NCBI RefSeq assembly: GCF_018389385.1
Contig: NZ_CP062698.1
Coordinates: 499,501-563,500 of the forward strand
Direction: 5' to 3'
DNA length: 64,000 nucleotides
DNA from: Anthocerotibacter panamensis C109
Lineage (GTDB): Bacteria; Cyanobacteriota; Cyanobacteriia; Gloeobacterales; Anthocerotibacteraceae
Under the pieces are notes generated by a model. The model was given only the letters and a program-made list of their open reading frames with translations. It did no database searches and was not told the origin of the DNA. Positions within the stretch are counted from its first letter, which is position 1. Every line of letters begins with the position of its first letter. Below are positions 16,090 through 39,243 of the stretch, in pieces. Both the position numbers and the translations under genes were made by a program.

Positions 16090-17364
16090 TCAGACCGTCA
16101 CCTGGAGCGCCTTAAAGCCGATATCCCGACGGTAGTACATGTCGGGAAAGTATAGTTGAGCAATAGCTTGATAGCTTGCTTGGAGGGCATCAGCCAAGGT
16201 CGCACCGCTGCCGGTCACCCCCAAAACGCGGCCTCCTTGTGTGACCCAATCTACCCCTTCACGAGCGGTCCCCGCATGAAAGACCGTTGCGTAGCCGGAT
16301 ACTTTTTCTAGTCCTTTGATAGGGTCGCCCTTGCGGTAGGAGCCGGGATAGCCCCCAGCAGCTACCACCACGCAGGCAGCACAACCTGGGTGCCATTCTA
16401 GGGGAAGGTCAGCCAAAGTTCCATCTAGTAGCGCTCGAGCGATCCGGGCAAAGTCAGTTTTGAGTAGAGGTAGAACCACCTGGGTCTCCGGGTCACCCAA
16501 ACGGCAGTTGAATTCCACCACAGCGGGCTCACCATTGGGATCAATCATCAGCCCTGCGTAGAGGACCCCCCGATAGTCGATGCTCCGCCGCCGTAGGGCG
16601 TCGAGGGTAGGCTGGAGCACGCGGGTCTGAACTTTAGCCATGATCTGAGCGGTGGCAAGGGGGACCGGCGCGTAGGTGCCCATCCCGCCGGTATTGGGGC
16701 CAGTATCGCCTTCGCCAATGGTTTTGTGGTCCTGTGCGGCGACTAACGGGACAATTGTGGTGCCATCGGTCAGTGCTAGGACTGAGAGTTCTTCGCCGAC
16801 TAGAAATTGCTCAATGACCACAGTCGCCCCAGAGCCCCCTAAGGCAAAGCAGGTCTGGAGCGCATCGAGAGCTTCAGCCCGGTCGTAGGCGATGACCACG
16901 CCTTTACCCTGAGCCAGACCATCCGCTTTGATCACCCGAGGCCAGATACCCTGGTCTAGACTGGCTTGTGCTTGAAGCGGATCGGTGAAGACCTGTGCTT
17001 GCGCCGTAGGCACCCCCGCCTCAACCATGAGTTGCTTGGCCCAGGCTTTAGAACTCTCAATCTGAGCTCCAGCCTGTGTGGGGCCAATAATAGGCAACCC
17101 CCGCGCTCGAAAGTAGTCCACGATACCCAGCGCCAGAAACTGTTCTGGGCCAACAAAAGTCCAAGCCAAGTGTTCTTGCTGGGCAAAATCGGCTAGACGA
17201 GGGAAGTCCAGCGGGTCGATAGACAGGTTGCACGCTTTTGGGGTGGTTGCGGTCCCTCCGTTCCCAGGTGCGACAAAAATCGTTTCTACTAAAGGCGACT
17301 GGCTCAACTTCCAGACCAGACAGTGTTCACGCCCACCTGAACCCACGACTAAAAGTTTCATCAC
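16090..17364 (-). CDS. purD: phosphoribosylamine--glycine ligase
   Basis: GAR synthetase catalyses the second step of purine synthesis, joining phosphoribosylamine and glycine with ATP. The 424-residue protein starts with KLLVVGSGGREHCLVWKL, has the ATP-grasp central region (KADGLAQGKGVVIA) and the signature blocks GDTGPNTGGMG and FNCRLGDPETQ. Length and domain order are standard and no fusion to purM or purN is present. The start is one of two adjacent ATG codons. Confidence 0.96.
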   Translation of the reverse strand: MMKLLVVGSGGREHCLVWKLSQSPLVETIFVAPGNGGTATTPKACNLSIDPLDFPRLADFAQQEHLAWTFVGPEQFLALGIVDYFRARGLPIIGPTQAGAQIESSKAWAKQLMVEAGVPTAQAQVFTDPLQAQASLDQGIWPRVIKADGLAQGKGVVIAYDRAEALDALQTCFALGGSGATVVIEQFLVGEELSVLALTDGTTIVPLVAAQDHKTIGEGDTGPNTGGMGTYAPVPLATAQIMAKVQTRVLQPTLDALRRRSIDYRGVLYAGLMIDPNGEPAVVEFNCRLGDPETQVVLPLLKTDFARIARALLDGTLADLPLEWHPGCAACVVVAAGGYPGSYRKGDPIKGLEKVSGYATVFHAGTAREGVDWVTQGGRVLGVTGSGATLADALQASYQAIAQLYFPDMYYRRDIGFKALQVTV

Positions 17365-28966: not shown

Positions 28967-29665
28967 ATGACATCGACACTTGCAGAAGTCCAAAGAAAAG
29001 TAAAGACCTACCTCTTCAAGCAGATCAGTAGACAGCGCCTCAAAAAACCAACGTTTACCCTGATATCCAATAATTGTTGGGGTGCGGAGGTATACCAATT
29101 ACTCGGACTACAGTACAGAACGCCTTTTGTTGGTCTTTTTTTACATGCTCCGTGCTATATCGAGCTGTTAAAAAATCTGCAAAGTGTGCTGTATTCACCT
29201 CTGGATTTTGTATCTATGTCTATCTATCCAAAAACCAATGAGCAGAGGAAAAAAAATGAGCACTATTATCCGATTGGCAGACTAAAAAACAATATTGAGG
29301 TCCACTTTCTCCACTACGAAAGTAAGGAGGAGGCTCAAGAAAAATGGTATCGCCGCCTGCAAAGAACTGACCTGTCTCATGAGTCCCTATTTATTCAATT
29401 CTCGGAGAGGGACTTGTGTACCTATGAGCTGTTGGAGAAATTTGAATTACTGAGCTTTGGCAATAAAATTTGTTTTACCACCCAAGCCTATCCTCACTTG
29501 TCCTCAAGTATTGAAATCGATCAATATGTGGGACGTGCTGAAGTGGATGACGGCTTAAAACTGTTTAGGGCTTGCCATCGATACTTCGATGTAGTCCAAT
29601 GGCTAAATAGCGGAGATGGCAAACCAGATTTTATAGGTACTACGATCGGTAATTTACTCACCTAA
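28967..29665 (+). CDS. DUF1919 domain protein (exopolysaccharide-associated)
   Basis: This 232-residue protein belongs to the DUF1919 family, found in capsule and O-antigen loci of many bacteria. Recognisable blocks are FTLISNNCWGAEVYQLLGL near residue 27, TPFVGLFLHAPCY, YPIGRLKNNIEVHFLHYES near residue 100 and AQEKWYRRLQR. The family's function is unproven; a transferase role on sugars is often assumed from context. Codon use is clearly more AT-rich than the neighbours on either side (many Lys and Asn AAA/AAT codons), suggesting separate acquisition. Confidence 0.8.
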   Translation: MTSTLAEVQRKVKTYLFKQISRQRLKKPTFTLISNNCWGAEVYQLLGLQYRTPFVGLFLHAPCYIELLKNLQSVLYSPLDFVSMSIYPKTNEQRKKNEHYYPIGRLKNNIEVHFLHYESKEEAQEKWYRRLQRTDLSHESLFIQFSERDLCTYELLEKFELLSFGNKICFTTQAYPHLSSSIEIDQYVGRAEVDDGLKLFRACHRYFDVVQWLNSGDGKPDFIGTTIGNLLT

Positions 29666-30299: not shown

Positions 30300-31145
30300 A
30301 TGGAAATTTGGGTCGAGATGATGAACCTTCCCCCTGAAAAGCTTCCTACCTTAGATGTCTTACTCCTGGGTAGACGGATAACGTGCATTACGATTCCAGC
30401 ACTGCTTGAGGCCATCTCTAACGTCTGTCGTGAAGGCCGAAAACTCCTGGTTTCCTCCTATAACGTCCACAGTTTTAATCTTTCCATGCAGTTACCTTGG
30501 TTTTACGATTTCCTCAAAAGTGTAGATATTGCCCCTTGCGATGGTATGGGCATTATGGGCGCGATCCGCTACATGGGCGTAGCCTTGCCCCTTGACTACC
30601 GCGCCTCTACTACCCTCTTGATGCCCAGACTGTTGGAGCAGTGCAATGACCAAGGTACTGCTCTATTTTTGCTCGGTGCGAAACCAGAGGAATCAAAAGT
30701 TGCCGTGCAGCGGGTTAAACATGCCTACCCCAATCTTGTCGTAGGCGGTCATCATGGTTATTTCTCCCATAAAGATAAAGACCAAAGAGCGGCGGTCATC
30801 CGTCACATTAATCAGTTTCGGCCTCAGATCTTGATCGTGGGTATGGGTTCTCCGCTTCAGGAAGCCTTTCTACATCACTATCGCCATGAGCTTGATGCGA
30901 ACGTCTTGATGACCGCAGGGGCTGTAATAGACCGACTGGCGGGGATGGTCCCGGACTGCCCGGAGCGGCTTCAAAATATGGGGCTGGAATGGTTCTATCG
31001 CCTCTGCCGGGAACCGAAACGGCTCTCGTTGCGCTACTTGCTGGGAAATCCTGCCTTTGCCCTCCATGTAGCCCTAGCGAAGAATTTAGTCACCCCCAAG
31101 GACCTGCTGGATATCCGTCCTTCTGCGTTAATCACCTCATTATGA
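30300..31145 (+). CDS. WecG/TagA/CpsF family glycosyltransferase
   Basis: This 281-residue GT26 enzyme typically adds the second sugar (N-acetylmannosamine or a uronic acid) to the lipid-linked primer. Blocks seen are PCDGMGIMGAIRYMG near residue 80, ALFLLGAKPEESK near residue 120, GGHHGYF, ILIVGMGSPLQEAF near residue 177, and the C-terminal DRLAGMVPDCPERLQNMGLE with the arginine-rich tail used for membrane contact. AGAGG seven bases upstream supports the start at 30300. Its stop overlaps the start of the next gene (ATGA), so translation is coupled. Confidence 0.92.
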   Translation: MEIWVEMMNLPPEKLPTLDVLLLGRRITCITIPALLEAISNVCREGRKLLVSSYNVHSFNLSMQLPWFYDFLKSVDIAPCDGMGIMGAIRYMGVALPLDYRASTTLLMPRLLEQCNDQGTALFLLGAKPEESKVAVQRVKHAYPNLVVGGHHGYFSHKDKDQRAAVIRHINQFRPQILIVGMGSPLQEAFLHHYRHELDANVLMTAGAVIDRLAGMVPDCPERLQNMGLEWFYRLCREPKRLSLRYLLGNPAFALHVALAKNLVTPKDLLDIRPSALITSL

Positions 31146-32197
31146 ATATCCTCCACGCGCTTTATCAGTGTCGAACGGGTGCCGGAGCGCTACAGGTGGT
31201 CGTCGATCTAGCCCGCTCTGCCCGTGCTCAGGGCTATGGCGTCACGGTGTTGGGGCCAACGGCGCTAGAGGCTGATGCTCCAGAGGTAGAGCGATTTTTC
31301 ACCGGGAATAAGATCCTGGACGGGTGGCGGCTCGCCCGCTACCTCTATCGCAAGCGCTGCGATATTGTTCATGTCCATGACCGCTACTGCTCCTTGCTGG
31401 TGAGCCTCATCCCCCAAGCCCCTCCCTCGGTGCAGACCAATCAATTTGCTTACCGCACCCACCGCCGCCTGACGCGTTTTGCGCAGTGTGTGGTGGGTTG
31501 TTCTGAGGCGATGGACCGCCACCACGCTGAATTTTTTGGGCTGCCTGCTTCACGGCGGACCGTGATTCCCAACGGGGTCAGCTTTCGACAGGCAGACTTG
31601 GCGCAGGCAAGCCTCCTCCACACCCGCTTCCAAGGATGGGTGCGCGGACGCCGGCTCTGTCTGACCGTAGCCCGTCTCGCCTACCAAAAGGGGCATATTT
31701 TCCTGCTGGAGGCGATAGCCCGTCTGCCTCCCACTGTGCGCTCGGGGTGGTGCTTTGTCCTGGCGGGAGAGGGTGAGCTCGAGCCCCAACTGCGGGCGCA
31801 GGCTGAACGTCTGGCTATTGTGGACGAGATTTTGTTTTTGGGCCACACCACACAGGTGCCGGAGTGGCTGTCCCTGGCGGAGGCATTTGTTTTGCCCTCG
31901 CGCTATGAAGGCTTGCCCTTGGCGCTGTTGGAGGCGATGGCGGCGGGTTTGCCCTGTCTTGGTACTGCCATTGACGGCATACGCGAAGTCCTGGTGGAGG
32001 GCAAGAACGGTCTACTTTGTCGCCCCGAGGACCCTGAGGACCTCTGTCACACCTTGGAGACTTTACTGGCGAATCAGCCCCTACGGCGGCGCTTAGGCCC
32101 CCAAGCACGGGCGGACTACGAACGCTCCTACACCCTAGAGCGCACATGGCAAGCCTATGAAGCCCTCTACCGGCGGCTACTCCTCCCTACCGGATGA
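31142..32197 (+). CDS. glycosyltransferase family 4
   Basis: This 351-residue GT-B enzyme starts MNILHALYQCRTGAGALQVV at the ATGA overlap with the previous gene; a longer upstream frame (from 30989) is read out of the WecG gene and is spurious. The C-terminal domain has LTVARLAYQKGHIFLLEA and FVLPSRYEGLPLALLEAMAA with the E-x7-E nucleotide-sugar motif. It would extend the repeat unit in the cytoplasm. Donor and acceptor are unknown. Confidence 0.9.
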   Translation: MNILHALYQCRTGAGALQVVVDLARSARAQGYGVTVLGPTALEADAPEVERFFTGNKILDGWRLARYLYRKRCDIVHVHDRYCSLLVSLIPQAPPSVQTNQFAYRTHRRLTRFAQCVVGCSEAMDRHHAEFFGLPASRRTVIPNGVSFRQADLAQASLLHTRFQGWVRGRRLCLTVARLAYQKGHIFLLEAIARLPPTVRSGWCFVLAGEGELEPQLRAQAERLAIVDEILFLGHTTQVPEWLSLAEAFVLPSRYEGLPLALLEAMAAGLPCLGTAIDGIREVLVEGKNGLLCRPEDPEDLCHTLETLLANQPLRRRLGPQARADYERSYTLERTWQAYEALYRRLLLPTG

Positions 32198-32218: not shown

Positions 32219-34210
32219 ATGAGATGTCCCATGCCCAAACCTCCTAAATTTAGTGTGGTTATCCCCGCCTACAACGTCGCTGCGTACATCGCTGCGTGCC
32301 TGAGATCCGTCTTCGCCCAATCGGATGGGGACTTTGAAGTGCTGGTCGTAGACGACGGCTCGACCGATCAAACCGCTCGAGTCGTCCTGAGTTTTGCAGA
32401 CCCCCGCCTCCATCTCATCCAACAGCGCAATGGAGGGCTGGCAGCAGCCCGCAACACAGGCATCCGGGCGGCGCAAGGGGAGTTGGTAGCTTTTTTGGAT
32501 GGGGATGACTGCTGGCATCCCGACAAACTCGCCGCCCACCGCCAAGCCCTCGACCAAGACCCGCAAGCTTCGATTAGCTACGACTGGTCCGTCTTAATCA
32601 ACACTCAAGGCGAGCACACCCCGTTCTTCTTGGACCAAACCCGCGTCACACTGACCCATGAGCGCCTTATTCCCAAGAATTATTTAGGCAATGGGAGTAC
32701 TGCTGTAGTGCGGCGGCTGGTCTTAGAACAGTGCGGGGGCTTTGATGAGCAGCTCAAGCGCTGTGTCGATCAGGAGTTGTGGGTGCGGCTGGCCTTTCGC
32801 GGCCATCGCTTCCGGCTGGTGCCCCGCGTGCTGACGGAGTACCGAGTCCGCCCGGATAGTTTTACTGCCGATACCCAACGCATGTTGCAAGGAATCGAAG
32901 ATTTTCTAGACCGGATCAGCACCTATGCCCCTGAGAGCGTGGCACGTCTGCGCCCCTTGACCCGCGCTTGCACCCATCGCTGGATCGCGCGCGTCGCTTT
33001 TGTGGCGGGGGATTATCCAAGCGCGCGCTGTCATGGACAACAGGCGCTAGCAAGTGATTTCACCGTCCTCTGGCGCGACCCACGAGCCGCCCTCACGCTA
33101 GCGGCCATAGCCCTGCAAGCGCTCACGCCACGTCCGCTCTTTGGCCGCTTATTAAATATAGGCCAACGTTTGCTCAAAGCCCGCTTGGAGACGCGTGCTC
33201 TTAGCCCGTTGCTGCTGCTGCTCTGGACGGGTCATCCGGTCCTCGCGCAGGCACCCGCCCAATCTAACTTTGCCCTGTCCGCTACCTCGGGGGGGGGATA
33301 TTTATTGGGGACGGGGGACCGCGTCCGGGTCACCGTCTATGGCTATGACGACCTATCGGGCGAACAAGTGGTCCTCGGGGATGGGCAGATCAATCTGCCG
33401 CTGATCGGAGCCTTCAAAGTGGAGGGCATAACCCTGGAAGCAGCCCGTCAGGAACTCTCAGAACGGCTCACGCCCTACGTCAACCGCCCCCAAGTCGGAC
33501 TCTCGGTCGTCAGCCCCCGCCCCTTGCGCGTCAGTGTCGTCGGGGAGGTCAATCAGCCCGGTCCACAGGTGCTCTCACTGGCTCCGGTCAACACTGCTGC
33601 TACCCCGTTGCTGTTGACCTTGAGCAAAGCCCTGATCAGTGCGGGCGGGATCACCCCTTCTGCCGATCTTGCCCATGTCGAACTGCACCGCCATCAACCG
33701 GATGGCTCGGTTGTGGTCAAGACGCTCAACTTGTGGCAAAACTTGAGCAAACAGTCCGACTTTGTGGACCCGGTTCTCCAAGACCAGGACACCATTGTGG
33801 TCGCGACACTCCCGCAGGGCAGCGACCAAAACCTCCAACTCGCGCTGCGCTCGACCTTGGCTCCCGACCAGATCGCAGTGGCGGTGGGCGGGGAGGTCCA
33901 CAGACCGGGGGCGGTCATGATTGCGCCTAGCCGCACGGCCCTCGATGCCCTAGCCGCAGCGGGAGGGCCTATTGACGGGGCAGACCTGAGTAATATCACG
34001 CTACTTAGGCAACAAGACGGACGCCTGCAAGCCCAACGGCTCAACCTCAATTCCGCCAATGATAGTACCCAAAATCCAGTCCTCCGGCCCGGAGACAGTA
34101 TTTTGGTGCCGCGCTCTGGCTGGCAGAGTTTCTTTGATACCACCTTGGGGACTGTGTTACGTCCGTTTAACAGTCTGGCGCAGATTCTCTTTTTCTTTAC
34201 GCGGCTTTAA
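32219..34210 (+). CDS. fused GT2 glycosyltransferase and Wza-like polysaccharide export protein
   Basis: One 663-residue frame holds two proteins normally separate. Residues about 10-320 are a GT-A family 2 transferase ([34 protein letters not shown]). Residues 328-345 form a hydrophobic stretch ending VLAQA, exactly like a signal peptide with a cleavage site. From about 360 comes a Poly_export domain (LLGTGDRVRVTVYGYDDLSG), then two SLBB domains (VVGEVNQPGPQVL, VGGEVHRPGAVMI) and a C-terminal helix. In-frame TTG codons at 33170 and 33185 could start a free export protein, but no Shine-Dalgarno precedes them. No lipobox cysteine is present. Either a true fusion or lost stop codon. Confidence 0.88.
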   Translation: MRCPMPKPPKFSVVIPAYNVAAYIAACLRSVFAQSDGDFEVLVVDDGSTDQTARVVLSFADPRLHLIQQRNGGLAAARNTGIRAAQGELVAFLDGDDCWHPDKLAAHRQALDQDPQASISYDWSVLINTQGEHTPFFLDQTRVTLTHERLIPKNYLGNGSTAVVRRLVLEQCGGFDEQLKRCVDQELWVRLAFRGHRFRLVPRVLTEYRVRPDSFTADTQRMLQGIEDFLDRISTYAPESVARLRPLTRACTHRWIARVAFVAGDYPSARCHGQQALASDFTVLWRDPRAALTLAAIALQALTPRPLFGRLLNIGQRLLKARLETRALSPLLLLLWTGHPVLAQAPAQSNFALSATSGGGYLLGTGDRVRVTVYGYDDLSGEQVVLGDGQINLPLIGAFKVEGITLEAARQELSERLTPYVNRPQVGLSVVSPRPLRVSVVGEVNQPGPQVLSLAPVNTAATPLLLTLSKALISAGGITPSADLAHVELHRHQPDGSVVVKTLNLWQNLSKQSDFVDPVLQDQDTIVVATLPQGSDQNLQLALRSTLAPDQIAVAVGGEVHRPGAVMIAPSRTALDALAAAGGPIDGADLSNITLLRQQDGRLQAQRLNLNSANDSTQNPVLRPGDSILVPRSGWQSFFDTTLGTVLRPFNSLAQILFFFTRL

Positions 34211-34224
34211 AGGAGTTCCTGACC

Positions 34225-36333
34225 ATGCTAAATCTCTATGTTCCAGAGCGCCGCTCCTTTGGAGAACGGGTCCTGCTGCTCCTCAACCGGGAGCGCAAGG
34301 TACTGTTGGGCGCGTTCACGATTCTGCTGGGCTCGTCGGTGCTTGCGATCTCGCTTCTGCCCAATACCTATGAGGCGCACTCCAAAATCTTGATCGAGTC
34401 CCCGCGCACCACCGAAGAACTGACGCGCGGTACGCAGGTCGGGCTTTCGCTGTTGCAGTCCATCGGCGAACGGGTCAACCCAATCAATACCCAAGTCGAG
34501 CTGATGGGCTCCTATCCGCTGTACCAAAAAGCCCTCGCCCGACTCAAGGTCTCCGAAGAAGAAGCGCCCTACGAGAAATTAGAGGTCAAACCTGTCCTAG
34601 GCACAGACTTGATCGAGGTGGATTACCGCAGTGGCTCCCCGGCGCTAGCAGCCAAAGTCGCAGCTTCTGTCGTCACGGTCTACACCGCAGAGAACCTGAA
34701 GGGGAATCGCGAGAAAGTGACCGAAGCGCGCAAGCTACTGGAAAAACAGCTCCCCGGACTCCTGACGACGATGCGTGCGGCCCAAGACCGGCTCGAACGC
34801 TTCCAAAAAGCCAATCGCTACCTAGGCAGTGCGCTCGAATCAGAATCGCTGACGCGTGAGCTCAACGAATTAGAGAGCAAAGTCAGCGCCGCACGCTCCG
34901 AAGTCGCCTTTACCGAGCGCAAACGGGCTGCTCTGAGTGCACAGTTCCCTGCCCCGCTCTCCCAGGCTATCAATAGCGCGGGCCTCAGCCAGGAGCCCGG
35001 ATATCAGGAACTCCAGACCCAACTGCTGCAAGCGGAGGGCAAACTAGCCGAACTCCAGAGCAACTTCGGGCCTCAAAATCCTCAAGTCCTCAATGCTATC
35101 CAGCGGCGTGACCAGCTCAAAACCCTGCTCAAAGGGCGGGTCGTCGGTATCCTCGGTGCGAAAGCTGAACGCTTTACTACCGCGCTGGACCCCTTGCGCC
35201 AGCGGCTGGCGGAACAGTGGTTTACCCAGGAGGCTGAGCACACCGCTCAGATCGCCCGCCTCAGCGAACTGACCAAGGCGCAACAAAAACTCCAAGAGCG
35301 TGCCCGCCAATTACCCCAACTCAACAAGCAACAGACGCAGTTGCAGATGACCGCAGAAAACGCCCAGAAAGAGTACGAGACCTTCAGGGAGAACTATACC
35401 AACAGCCGTCTTGCCGAACAGTTACGCCTCAGCAACGTCCGGGTCATCGAGCCCGCCTTGGTCCCCACCGAGCCAGATGCACCAAATCGCAAGCTCTTAT
35501 TTGCCCTGGCGCTGGTGGGCAGCGGGGGTATTGCTTTGTTCCTCACCTGGCTGCACACGCGGCGGTCTGATACGTTGGAGGGCTTGATCGAACTGCAAGA
35601 TGCGTTACCCATCCCGGTGCTCTCGGTCGTCCCGCAGCTTGGGGATGGGCGGCTGGTTGGACGGGAACGGCGTGAAGGCGACCCGCTGATCGGCAGCTAC
35701 GACCTGCTCCAGGCCCATCTGCGGATGCTCCCCCGCGAAGTCCAGACTCTGGCGGTCTGTAGTTGGGGGCAAGATGAGGGCTGCTCCTCCGTAGCAGCCA
35801 ACTTAGCTTGGCTCGAGATCCAGGCGGGCCGCCGTGTCCTGCTCATCGATGCCGGGGGCAGTGTTCCTGGTCAGATGGAGTTTTGGCAGTTTAACCGCTC
35901 TGTAAAAACCTCAGCCGCACGCTTTGGGGCAGATACTCCGTGGCAGGGGCTTTTGGGTGAAGTGCTCCCCGGTCTAGATATTCTCCCCTGTGGCAATTTG
36001 CACGCCTACAAAGACTGGTTGGTTCTGCTGGCACGTGCCCGTGAGCACTACGACGTGATCCTCCTCGATTGCCCGCCTGTGAGCTATGGCCCCAAAGCAA
36101 CCTTGCTTGCGTCGCTCTCAGATGGCGTACTGTGGGTCACCTGTCCAGAACGCCTAGGCCGCCGTGGTGCCCAGACTGCCGCCGAGCACCTGCGGACCTG
36201 GGGGACCCGCCTGTTGGGGCAGGTAGTCCTCGGGAGTAAAAATCCCTCGTTGCCCGAACTCGATCCTGCCCCGGCCCTGACCGAAGCTCCTCCTCCTTCG
36301 CTTCCTGGCACGCTGCGCGGAGAAAATTCATGA
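34225..36333 (+). CDS. Wzc-like polysaccharide copolymerase with degenerate kinase domain
   Basis: This 702-residue protein has the Wzz-type layout: membrane helix near residues 27-45, a periplasmic part with long coiled coils (about 150-400), a second helix near 428-446, and a cytoplasmic BY-kinase-like domain from about 475. In that domain the Walker A reads SWGQDEGCSSVAANLA: the catalytic lysine position holds C520. Walker A' reads LLIDAGG instead of LLIDAD. Walker B (VILLDCPP) is kept. No C-terminal tyrosine cluster is present. It probably regulates chain length and contacts the export protein encoded just upstream (14-base gap) but cannot be expected to phosphorylate. Confidence 0.88.
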   Translation: MLNLYVPERRSFGERVLLLLNRERKVLLGAFTILLGSSVLAISLLPNTYEAHSKILIESPRTTEELTRGTQVGLSLLQSIGERVNPINTQVELMGSYPLYQKALARLKVSEEEAPYEKLEVKPVLGTDLIEVDYRSGSPALAAKVAASVVTVYTAENLKGNREKVTEARKLLEKQLPGLLTTMRAAQDRLERFQKANRYLGSALESESLTRELNELESKVSAARSEVAFTERKRAALSAQFPAPLSQAINSAGLSQEPGYQELQTQLLQAEGKLAELQSNFGPQNPQVLNAIQRRDQLKTLLKGRVVGILGAKAERFTTALDPLRQRLAEQWFTQEAEHTAQIARLSELTKAQQKLQERARQLPQLNKQQTQLQMTAENAQKEYETFRENYTNSRLAEQLRLSNVRVIEPALVPTEPDAPNRKLLFALALVGSGGIALFLTWLHTRRSDTLEGLIELQDALPIPVLSVVPQLGDGRLVGRERREGDPLIGSYDLLQAHLRMLPREVQTLAVCSWGQDEGCSSVAANLAWLEIQAGRRVLLIDAGGSVPGQMEFWQFNRSVKTSAARFGADTPWQGLLGEVLPGLDILPCGNLHAYKDWLVLLARAREHYDVILLDCPPVSYGPKATLLASLSDGVLWVTCPERLGRRGAQTAAEHLRTWGTRLLGQVVLGSKNPSLPELDPAPALTEAPPPSLPGTLRGENS

Positions 36334-37709
36334 GACAGGCTATGATCCTGCCCCAGAGCGGATTGCTCCCGGTGGGGCAGACGGTCTTTGGGCTTCCTCC
36401 CTTGGATATCCCCGCCGAGCGGATACTGTTTTGGAGCATCGTGCTGGTCCCGCTGTGGTGGATTTTGGGCATCCAGATCGTAGTCTTCCCGCTGGTCGGC
36501 TGGTATCTGTTTATCCGTAGTTTGCGCCGCCCCTATCAGGTTCCTTTGCTCTTGGGCTGGAATTTTTGGTGGCTCTATATCGGGGCTTGGTCGCTTTCTC
36601 TGTTGGTCAATTTGGTCAGCGGGGGCGCTGAACTCGGACGCAGTATCACTACGTTAGGTTCGATTTTTGGGGTCTGGGCGCTGATCGTGATCCTGTGGTC
36701 GGCAATGCGCCGTCTGGGTATCCGCTATCAGGTGGTCATCCGGGCGGTCTGTGTGCTCGGGCTGTGCCAATTGCTGGCGGTGGTCGTCGGGGAGTCCTAC
36801 TTGAAACTGACGGGTTCTTTACTCCAGACCGATAGCCTGCTCGTCACGCTGTTCCCTGCGCTCCCGAGAGGCTTCTTAAAAGCCCAACTCTATTACCTGG
36901 ATCAAGTCGGCTGGGACCTCGACCGGGTTCCGCGCCTCATATCGTTTTACTACTGGTCTCCTATTGCCGGGACCATGAGTGCCTTCATCTGCGCCGCCGC
37001 CTTGAGTGAGCGCAACCGGCTTTGGCAAGTGCTGGCTTTGTTGGGTGGGCTGACCACTGCTTGGTATGCAGCGGCTCGGGTCGGTCAAGTGGCGCTGGTC
37101 CTTGGCGTGATCGTTGCTGTATTGCTGATGGGGGGTCTGGGCCGAAAAATTTTGCTGGCGGGGATCCTGCCGGTGGCTCTAGGGGCACCCCGGATTATCC
37201 AGGCGCTAGTGAGCTACTTCTTTGAGTACCGCAGCGATTCAGGGAAGTTGCGTAATCTGCTCTATGAGCGGACCTATGAGGCTTTTCTGGACTCCCCGCT
37301 GTTGGGGTATGGCACCCATGGTCGGGATGAAGTGTTGGTGCTGCCTTTGGGTTCTCATTCTCAGATCTATTCGACGCTTTACCAAACTGGGGTGCTGGGC
37401 ACGGTCATCCTGGTGCTGGCTTGGGTGATACTCTCCTTTACTATCGGGCGGCTGGCCTTGCAATTTCCCGAGGTTGCCCCGGTCTTTGGAGCCTGGGTGG
37501 GGCTGACTATAGTTATGTTTAGCGGGGAACTAGAAGCTGCGAGCGTGACGGTCTTTGTGCTGGGGGCTTGGTTGGGCTGTGCTTGGAATCGGGTGGATGA
37601 ACTTCGTACCCAACCCGTGGGACAACCGCGCCTGGAGGCCCCACTCCCCTGGGAATGGGTAGACCGCAGACGTCCCATAGACATAGCGGGGACAAAATTC
37701 AATGCCTGA
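36330..37709 (+). CDS. Wzy-like/O-antigen ligase family membrane protein
   Basis: This 459-residue protein has about ten to twelve membrane helices and a large hydrophilic loop, as expected of O-antigen polymerases or ligases. The conserved region near the C-terminal half (LLYERTYEAFLDSPLLGYG and GSHSQIYSTLYQTGVLG, about 305-355) matches the Wzy_C/O-antigen ligase signature with the key H-S. It would polymerise lipid-linked repeats on the periplasmic face. The ATGA overlap with the copolymerase gene implies coupling. Confidence 0.85.
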   Translation: MRQAMILPQSGLLPVGQTVFGLPPLDIPAERILFWSIVLVPLWWILGIQIVVFPLVGWYLFIRSLRRPYQVPLLLGWNFWWLYIGAWSLSLLVNLVSGGAELGRSITTLGSIFGVWALIVILWSAMRRLGIRYQVVIRAVCVLGLCQLLAVVVGESYLKLTGSLLQTDSLLVTLFPALPRGFLKAQLYYLDQVGWDLDRVPRLISFYYWSPIAGTMSAFICAAALSERNRLWQVLALLGGLTTAWYAAARVGQVALVLGVIVAVLLMGGLGRKILLAGILPVALGAPRIIQALVSYFFEYRSDSGKLRNLLYERTYEAFLDSPLLGYGTHGRDEVLVLPLGSHSQIYSTLYQTGVLGTVILVLAWVILSFTIGRLALQFPEVAPVFGAWVGLTIVMFSGELEAASVTVFVLGAWLGCAWNRVDELRTQPVGQPRLEAPLPWEWVDRRRPIDIAGTKFNA

Positions 37710-39213: not shown

Positions 39214-39243
39214 AAAGTGATGCTGTTGGCAGGAGCGCAAACT

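Follow-up and report, generated by a model that had tools for sequence, protein, structure and literature searches.

The closest precedent for the gene described here is found in Gluconacetobacter hansenii, where AcsA and AcsB are made as one polypeptide that undergoes proteolytic processing (PMC4877109). That polypeptide joins a GT2 polysaccharide synthase to a periplasmic partner from the same pathway and is processed in two; the AcsA synthase is processive and spans the membrane several times, and AcsB remains in complex with it as a periplasmic subunit anchored in the inner membrane. FbcH, the cytochrome b/c1 polyprotein of Bradyrhizobium, likewise yields two proteins from a single chain through a split at an internal signal peptide, but its respiratory function is unrelated, and our search of the literature on FbcH found nothing useful.

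Polysaccharide exporters of the OPX type combine a Poly_export domain with SLBB domains and fall into three classes, and the excerpted text of the survey that defines them includes no class in which a glycosyltransferase precedes these domains (PMC9603273). The exporter Wza and its partner Wzc together form a channel that crosses the envelope without a break (PMC12881504).

Here we describe a gene that encodes a GT2 and a Wza-type exporter in a single frame. It lies in a 64,000-nucleotide stretch of the deep-branching cyanobacterium Anthocerotibacter panamensis C109 (hereafter the window), whose genome is a single contig of 4,187,797 bases. The open-access text searched yielded no account of a chain that combines a GT2 with a Wza-type exporter, a pairing that is probably resolved by ordinary signal peptidase processing.

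Architecture and conservation of the fused frame

The frame is open throughout its 663 codons and stop, with ATG 32219 or ATG 32231 as candidate start codons. It encodes a complete GT2 from residue 1 to about residue 325, a signal-peptide core at residues 327-343, and then the exporter (Table 1). On the same chain, Pfam profiles matched the GT2 family PF00535 at 12-118 (E=1.5e-34), PF10111 at 12-241 (E=6.6e-28), Poly_export PF02563 at 359-430 (E=1e-19), and SLBB_2 PF22461 at 554-630 in two stretches, while no NCBIfam equivalog attained its cutoff with the fused protein. The original prediction, that one open frame holds a GT2, a signal-peptide-like stretch, and Poly_export and SLBB domains, was borne out by the frame, the Pfam matches and hydropathy, and we judge sound the topology it drew, with a cytoplasmic transferase and a periplasmic exporter on one chain.

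The same fusion is present in a second genome (G005; 4,724,791 bases), which belongs to another family of the same deep-branching order, Gloeobacterales, and which we take to be Gloeobacter kilaueensis. The two proteins are 59% identical end to end, and the second is also free of stops. Codon positions of the GT2 bodies differ by 0.58 at the third position and by 0.24 at both the first and the second; the corresponding values for the exporter bodies are 0.60, 0.33 and 0.22. This excess of third-position change indicates that both halves are under purifying selection. A sequencing error at the junction, which had been raised as a possibility to check, was ruled out and dropped because the second genome carries the same full-length open fusion. 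The rarity of the fusion, seen in 2 genomes across the samples of order, class and phylum, would suit a sequencing error or a recent stop loss with no biological meaning, but its recurrence in a separate assembly and the conservation of both bodies, with third-position change in excess, make an artefact or a decaying gene very improbable. The fusion is real, old and maintained.

Searches of Gloeobacterales, of several hundred additional genomes of cyanobacteria, of plasmids and of other scanned loci revealed no further GT2-exporter fusion. The class and phylum draws comprised 390 and 386 cyanobacterial genomes, respectively, with overlap, and distant fusions could be missed because three candidates per genome were scored in these large draws. 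A GTDB contig scan, which may omit the window's own relatives, returned generic GT2 matches only, because its patterns were derived from the GT2 half. Fused copies were not found in three genomes of the genus of G005 (G003 and G004, presumably Gloeobacter violaceus and Gloeobacter morelensis, and G006). Their best exporter matches (L030, L031 and L033) lie in other neighbourhoods that lack the WecG-GT4-GT2-Wzc-Wzy order, a pattern that suggests a patchy distribution, with possible loss or transfer of the cluster. A GT4-GT2 frame of 705 aa in the MAG G111 (L043, 406-2523) was rejected as a candidate: FEKPGSSTK replaces FEKTWQQYE at the GT4 end, indicating a probable frameshift, and the frame is probably no true fusion.

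The two halves and their gene cluster

The GT2 half has a GT-A fold profile together with the DDG and DxD motifs of the family. Its motifs VDDGS, LDxDD and VDxELW are retained and are invariant in the alignment with G005. By sequence it matches GT2 enzymes such as chondroitin synthase (2z86), and its fold matches include K4CP.

In the exporter half, Poly_export is followed by at least one SLBB domain, as in OPX proteins, and Escherichia coli Wza (2j58) is the best match by fold and among the best by sequence. Class 1 OPX proteins (Wza type; 2j58), as characterized in the excerpted survey, begin with a signal sequence, followed by Poly_export, SLBB repeats and then a C-terminal helix (PMC9603273), and the fused exporter resembles them in its domains. 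At the place of the class 1 helix it has a predicted helix of 28 residues, which is of low confidence and lacks a Pfam Wza_C match. The signal sequence is not at the start of the chain; its core begins at residue 327, behind the GT2. Most class 1 members are, according to the same excerpts, predicted Sec/SPII lipoproteins with their own start (PMC9603273), whereas the fused exporter follows a GT2 and has a predicted SPI-type site that lacks a lipobox cysteine. The G000 genome also encodes at least four other such exporters (loci L002-L005), none of them fused to a GT2.

The order WecG-GT4-[GT2::exporter]-Wzc-Wzy is common to the window and G005. In three other cyanobacterial genomes (G070, G246 and G111) the order is WecG-GT4-GT2-Wzc-Wzy, and their stand-alone GT2s are orthologous to the fused one (56-63% identity) but have their own stop codon, with no exporter gene before wzc. 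In G072 and G049 the cluster reads WecG-GT4-Wzc-Wzy. The thought that relatives might show a stop codon and separate genes thus held in part: the free GT2 with its stop does occur, but no exporter gene comes after it. In a tree built from four neighbouring cluster genes, a split with full support separates the window and G005 from the other clusters, which is consistent with the fused cluster having arisen once; a tree of the GT2 alone, with support of 67-73, does not resolve this grouping.

Other features of the cluster were also observed. The Wzc-like proteins of both fused clusters have a degenerate Walker A motif, EGCSSVAANLA, in which Lys is replaced by Cys (in G005, L028 at about 16880-17150). 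The Wzc-like protein of the window also lacks a tyrosine-rich tail, and together these traits suggest that it is a pseudokinase partner. A DUF1919 protein (PF08942, E=3.5e-49) is encoded at 28967-29665, between a WbaP-like initiating transferase and WecG.

Table 1. Positions in the window of the fused gene, its parts and the neighbouring cluster genes.
Feature	Position	Strand	Basis
WecG/TagA glycosyltransferase, upstream gene	30300..31145	+	Synteny and profile
GT4 glycosyltransferase, upstream gene	31139..32197 (as queried; exact start a few codons inside)	+	Pfam and synteny
Whole fused ORF, GT2::signal peptide::Wza-type exporter	32219..34210	+	Frame, Pfam and full-length G005 homologue
GT2 catalytic domain, residues 12-241	32252..32941	+	PF00535/PF10111; invariant motifs; high-confidence model
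Remaining GT2 including C-terminal helices, residues 242-326	32942..33196	+	Alignment with free GT2s of G070/G246; modelled helices
In-frame TTG, candidate internal start, weak, unconserved	33170..33172	+	Codon and ribosome-binding-site comparison
Signal-peptide h-region ALSPLLLLLWT, residues 327-337	33197..33229	+	Hydropathy; resemblance to free exporters' signal peptides
c-region and predicted signal peptidase I site VLA↓QAPAQ	33239..33262	+	Similar sites in free Gloeobacterales exporters; low-confidence coil
Poly_export domain, residues 359-430	33293..33508	+	Pfam; Wza 2j58 match
Second SLBB domain, residues 554-630	33878..34108	+	Pfam/profile
C-terminal helix, residues 635-662, where the Wza outer-membrane helix sits	34121..34204	+	Low-confidence prediction; similar tails on other exporters
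Wzc-like polysaccharide co-polymerase, degenerate ATPase, downstream gene	34225..36333	+	Pfam and synteny
Wzy/O-antigen-ligase-type polymerase, downstream gene	36330..37709	+	Synteny and profile

The junction and the fate of the chain

Free GT2 orthologues of the cluster terminate at about residues 322-326 of the fusion, just ahead of the hydrophobic core; in G070 and G246 the tail aligns to residues ~303-326 and then meets a stop. In the fusion, the chain continues into the hydrophobic stretch ALSPLLLLLWT and then GHPVLAQAPAQ. This fused segment, LSPLLLLLWTGHPVLA↓QAPAQSNFALSATSGGGYLLGTGDR (arrows mark predicted cleavage sites), has the same layout as the signal peptide of a free Gloeobacterales exporter, LASVLAALVLAAPVFA↓QQAAPPVFDLGASQDGYLLGPGDR, and likewise matches that of another, MVKASFRLASVLAALVLAAPVFA↓QQAAPPVFDLGASQDGYLLGPGDR; cleavage sites in the free exporters are VFA↓QQ, VLA↓QP and similar. 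The ends of the GT2 orthologues and the matching signal peptides together place the junction inside the n-region of the exporter's signal peptide. As judged from these alignments, the fusion retains the exporter's h- and c-regions, and the GT2 tail replaces the n-region and start codon.

Identity between the two fusions drops to 17% in the linker, as a signal peptide would lead one to expect, while the two flanking bodies reach 65% and 61%. With about 10 residues the h-region is short, and the six 19-residue segments of highest hydropathy in the A. panamensis protein all lie elsewhere; in the G005 fusion the top-ranking segment does include the core. The predicted cut is after residue 343 (VLA↓QAPAQ), with AQA↓P, after residue 345, as the alternative. 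Proline at +1 disfavours cleavage by signal peptidase, which argues against AQA↓P and places the cut at VLA↓Q. The AlphaFold model shows two bodies of high confidence, each placed independently of the other, and a linker of low confidence at 328-357 (pTM 0.55, mean pLDDT 87). The C-terminal helices of the GT2 span 288-302 and 305-336, and the latter runs on through the hydrophobic core.

We propose, with a probability of roughly 0.6, that the product of the gene is a polyprotein, cleaved by signal peptidase, and that the gene belongs to an exopolysaccharide cluster of the Wzx/Wzy type. The original prediction had weighed cleavage, an uncleaved tether and TTG starts, and of these cleavage appears best supported, by the homologous linker, with its short core and freely varying sequence, whereas the other two are disfavoured. 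In the proposed history, an exporter gene would have come to sit between GT2 and wzc, and the junction would have lost the GT2 stop and the exporter start, so that the C-terminal helix of the GT2 now serves as the n-region of the signal peptide. After translation the GT2 would fold in the cytoplasm, and the internal signal peptide would thread through Sec with its positive side in. Signal peptidase I would then cut, most likely at VLA↓QAPAQ. The freed exporter would assemble as a periplasmic or outer-membrane channel with the neighbouring Wzc-like protein, and the hydrophobic remnant would stay on the GT2 and anchor its C-terminus in the membrane. Counting against cleavage are the following: a folded domain of 320 residues before a signal peptide is unusual, the prediction depends on VLA↓Q since AQA↓P is disfavoured, the core of the G005 fusion reaches the top hydropathy segment, and the modelled helix through the core would also suit a membrane anchor.

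That last observation bears on the possibility that the core is a signal anchor and that the intact chain couples a cytoplasmic GT2 to a periplasmic exporter in the Wzx/Wzy pathway. Such a tether would account for a frame retained in two distant genomes, with no stop and start regained, and for the single long helix modelled across the junction. According to the excerpted survey, OPX proteins commonly lack an outer-membrane helix, so the exporter need not be in the outer membrane (PMC9603273). We nevertheless consider a tether unlikely, as the core is short and signal-peptide-like with its c-region kept, only ~15 residues separate it from Poly_export, and the C-terminus of this exporter is predicted, at low confidence, to form a helix like that of Wza. 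In Wza (2J58) the chain begins beside the outer membrane, and an inner-membrane tether therefore misfits a Wza-like octamer. It also fits badly with the continuous Wza-Wzc channel (PMC12881504).

The chain could instead supply the GT2 while a free exporter is also initiated in frame, at TTG 33170 or a similar codon, with its own signal peptide. The TTG codons at 33170 and 33185 that had been suggested as exporter starts are indeed present and in frame, with a third at 33209 (residues 318, 323 and 331). Initiation at 33170 would place a normal n-region (LLKARLETR) ahead of the core, and this codon is preceded by an AGG (duplex energy -2.4). The three candidates score -2.4, +0.6 and +0.5, against -5.7 to -8.7 for most neighbouring genes, with the caveat for Shine-Dalgarno comparisons that the fusion's own start is weak too and that a GT2 gene at 39217 scores -2.4. 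None of the TTG codons is conserved in G005, where the sole in-frame start near the junction, the ATG at residue 302, sits in the conserved GT2 tail and lacks a ribosome-binding site (+0.3). With unconserved codons and weak ribosome-binding sites, internal initiation is disfavoured as the main route, and we regard dual products as doubtful.

Comparison with AcsAB and significance

The fusion differs from AcsAB in that its GT2 is small and has no membrane-spanning domain of its own, and its partner is a Wza-type exporter of the Wzx/Wzy pathway. For the fusion, the open frame, the homology of the linker to signal peptides and the conservation of the whole layout are established, and use of the signal peptide and cleavage are predicted. 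If it is cleaved, the fusion would be a second polysaccharide-pathway case beside AcsAB, and it would hold the output of both proteins at 1:1 and bring the transferase to the membrane. The fusion is a natural system in which to ask whether a Sec signal peptide still functions when a cytoplasmic enzyme of 320 residues precedes it, and whether a Wzx/Wzy transferase and exporter benefit from fixed stoichiometry or co-location, in a setting where gain and loss of the fusion can be traced inside one cyanobacterial order.
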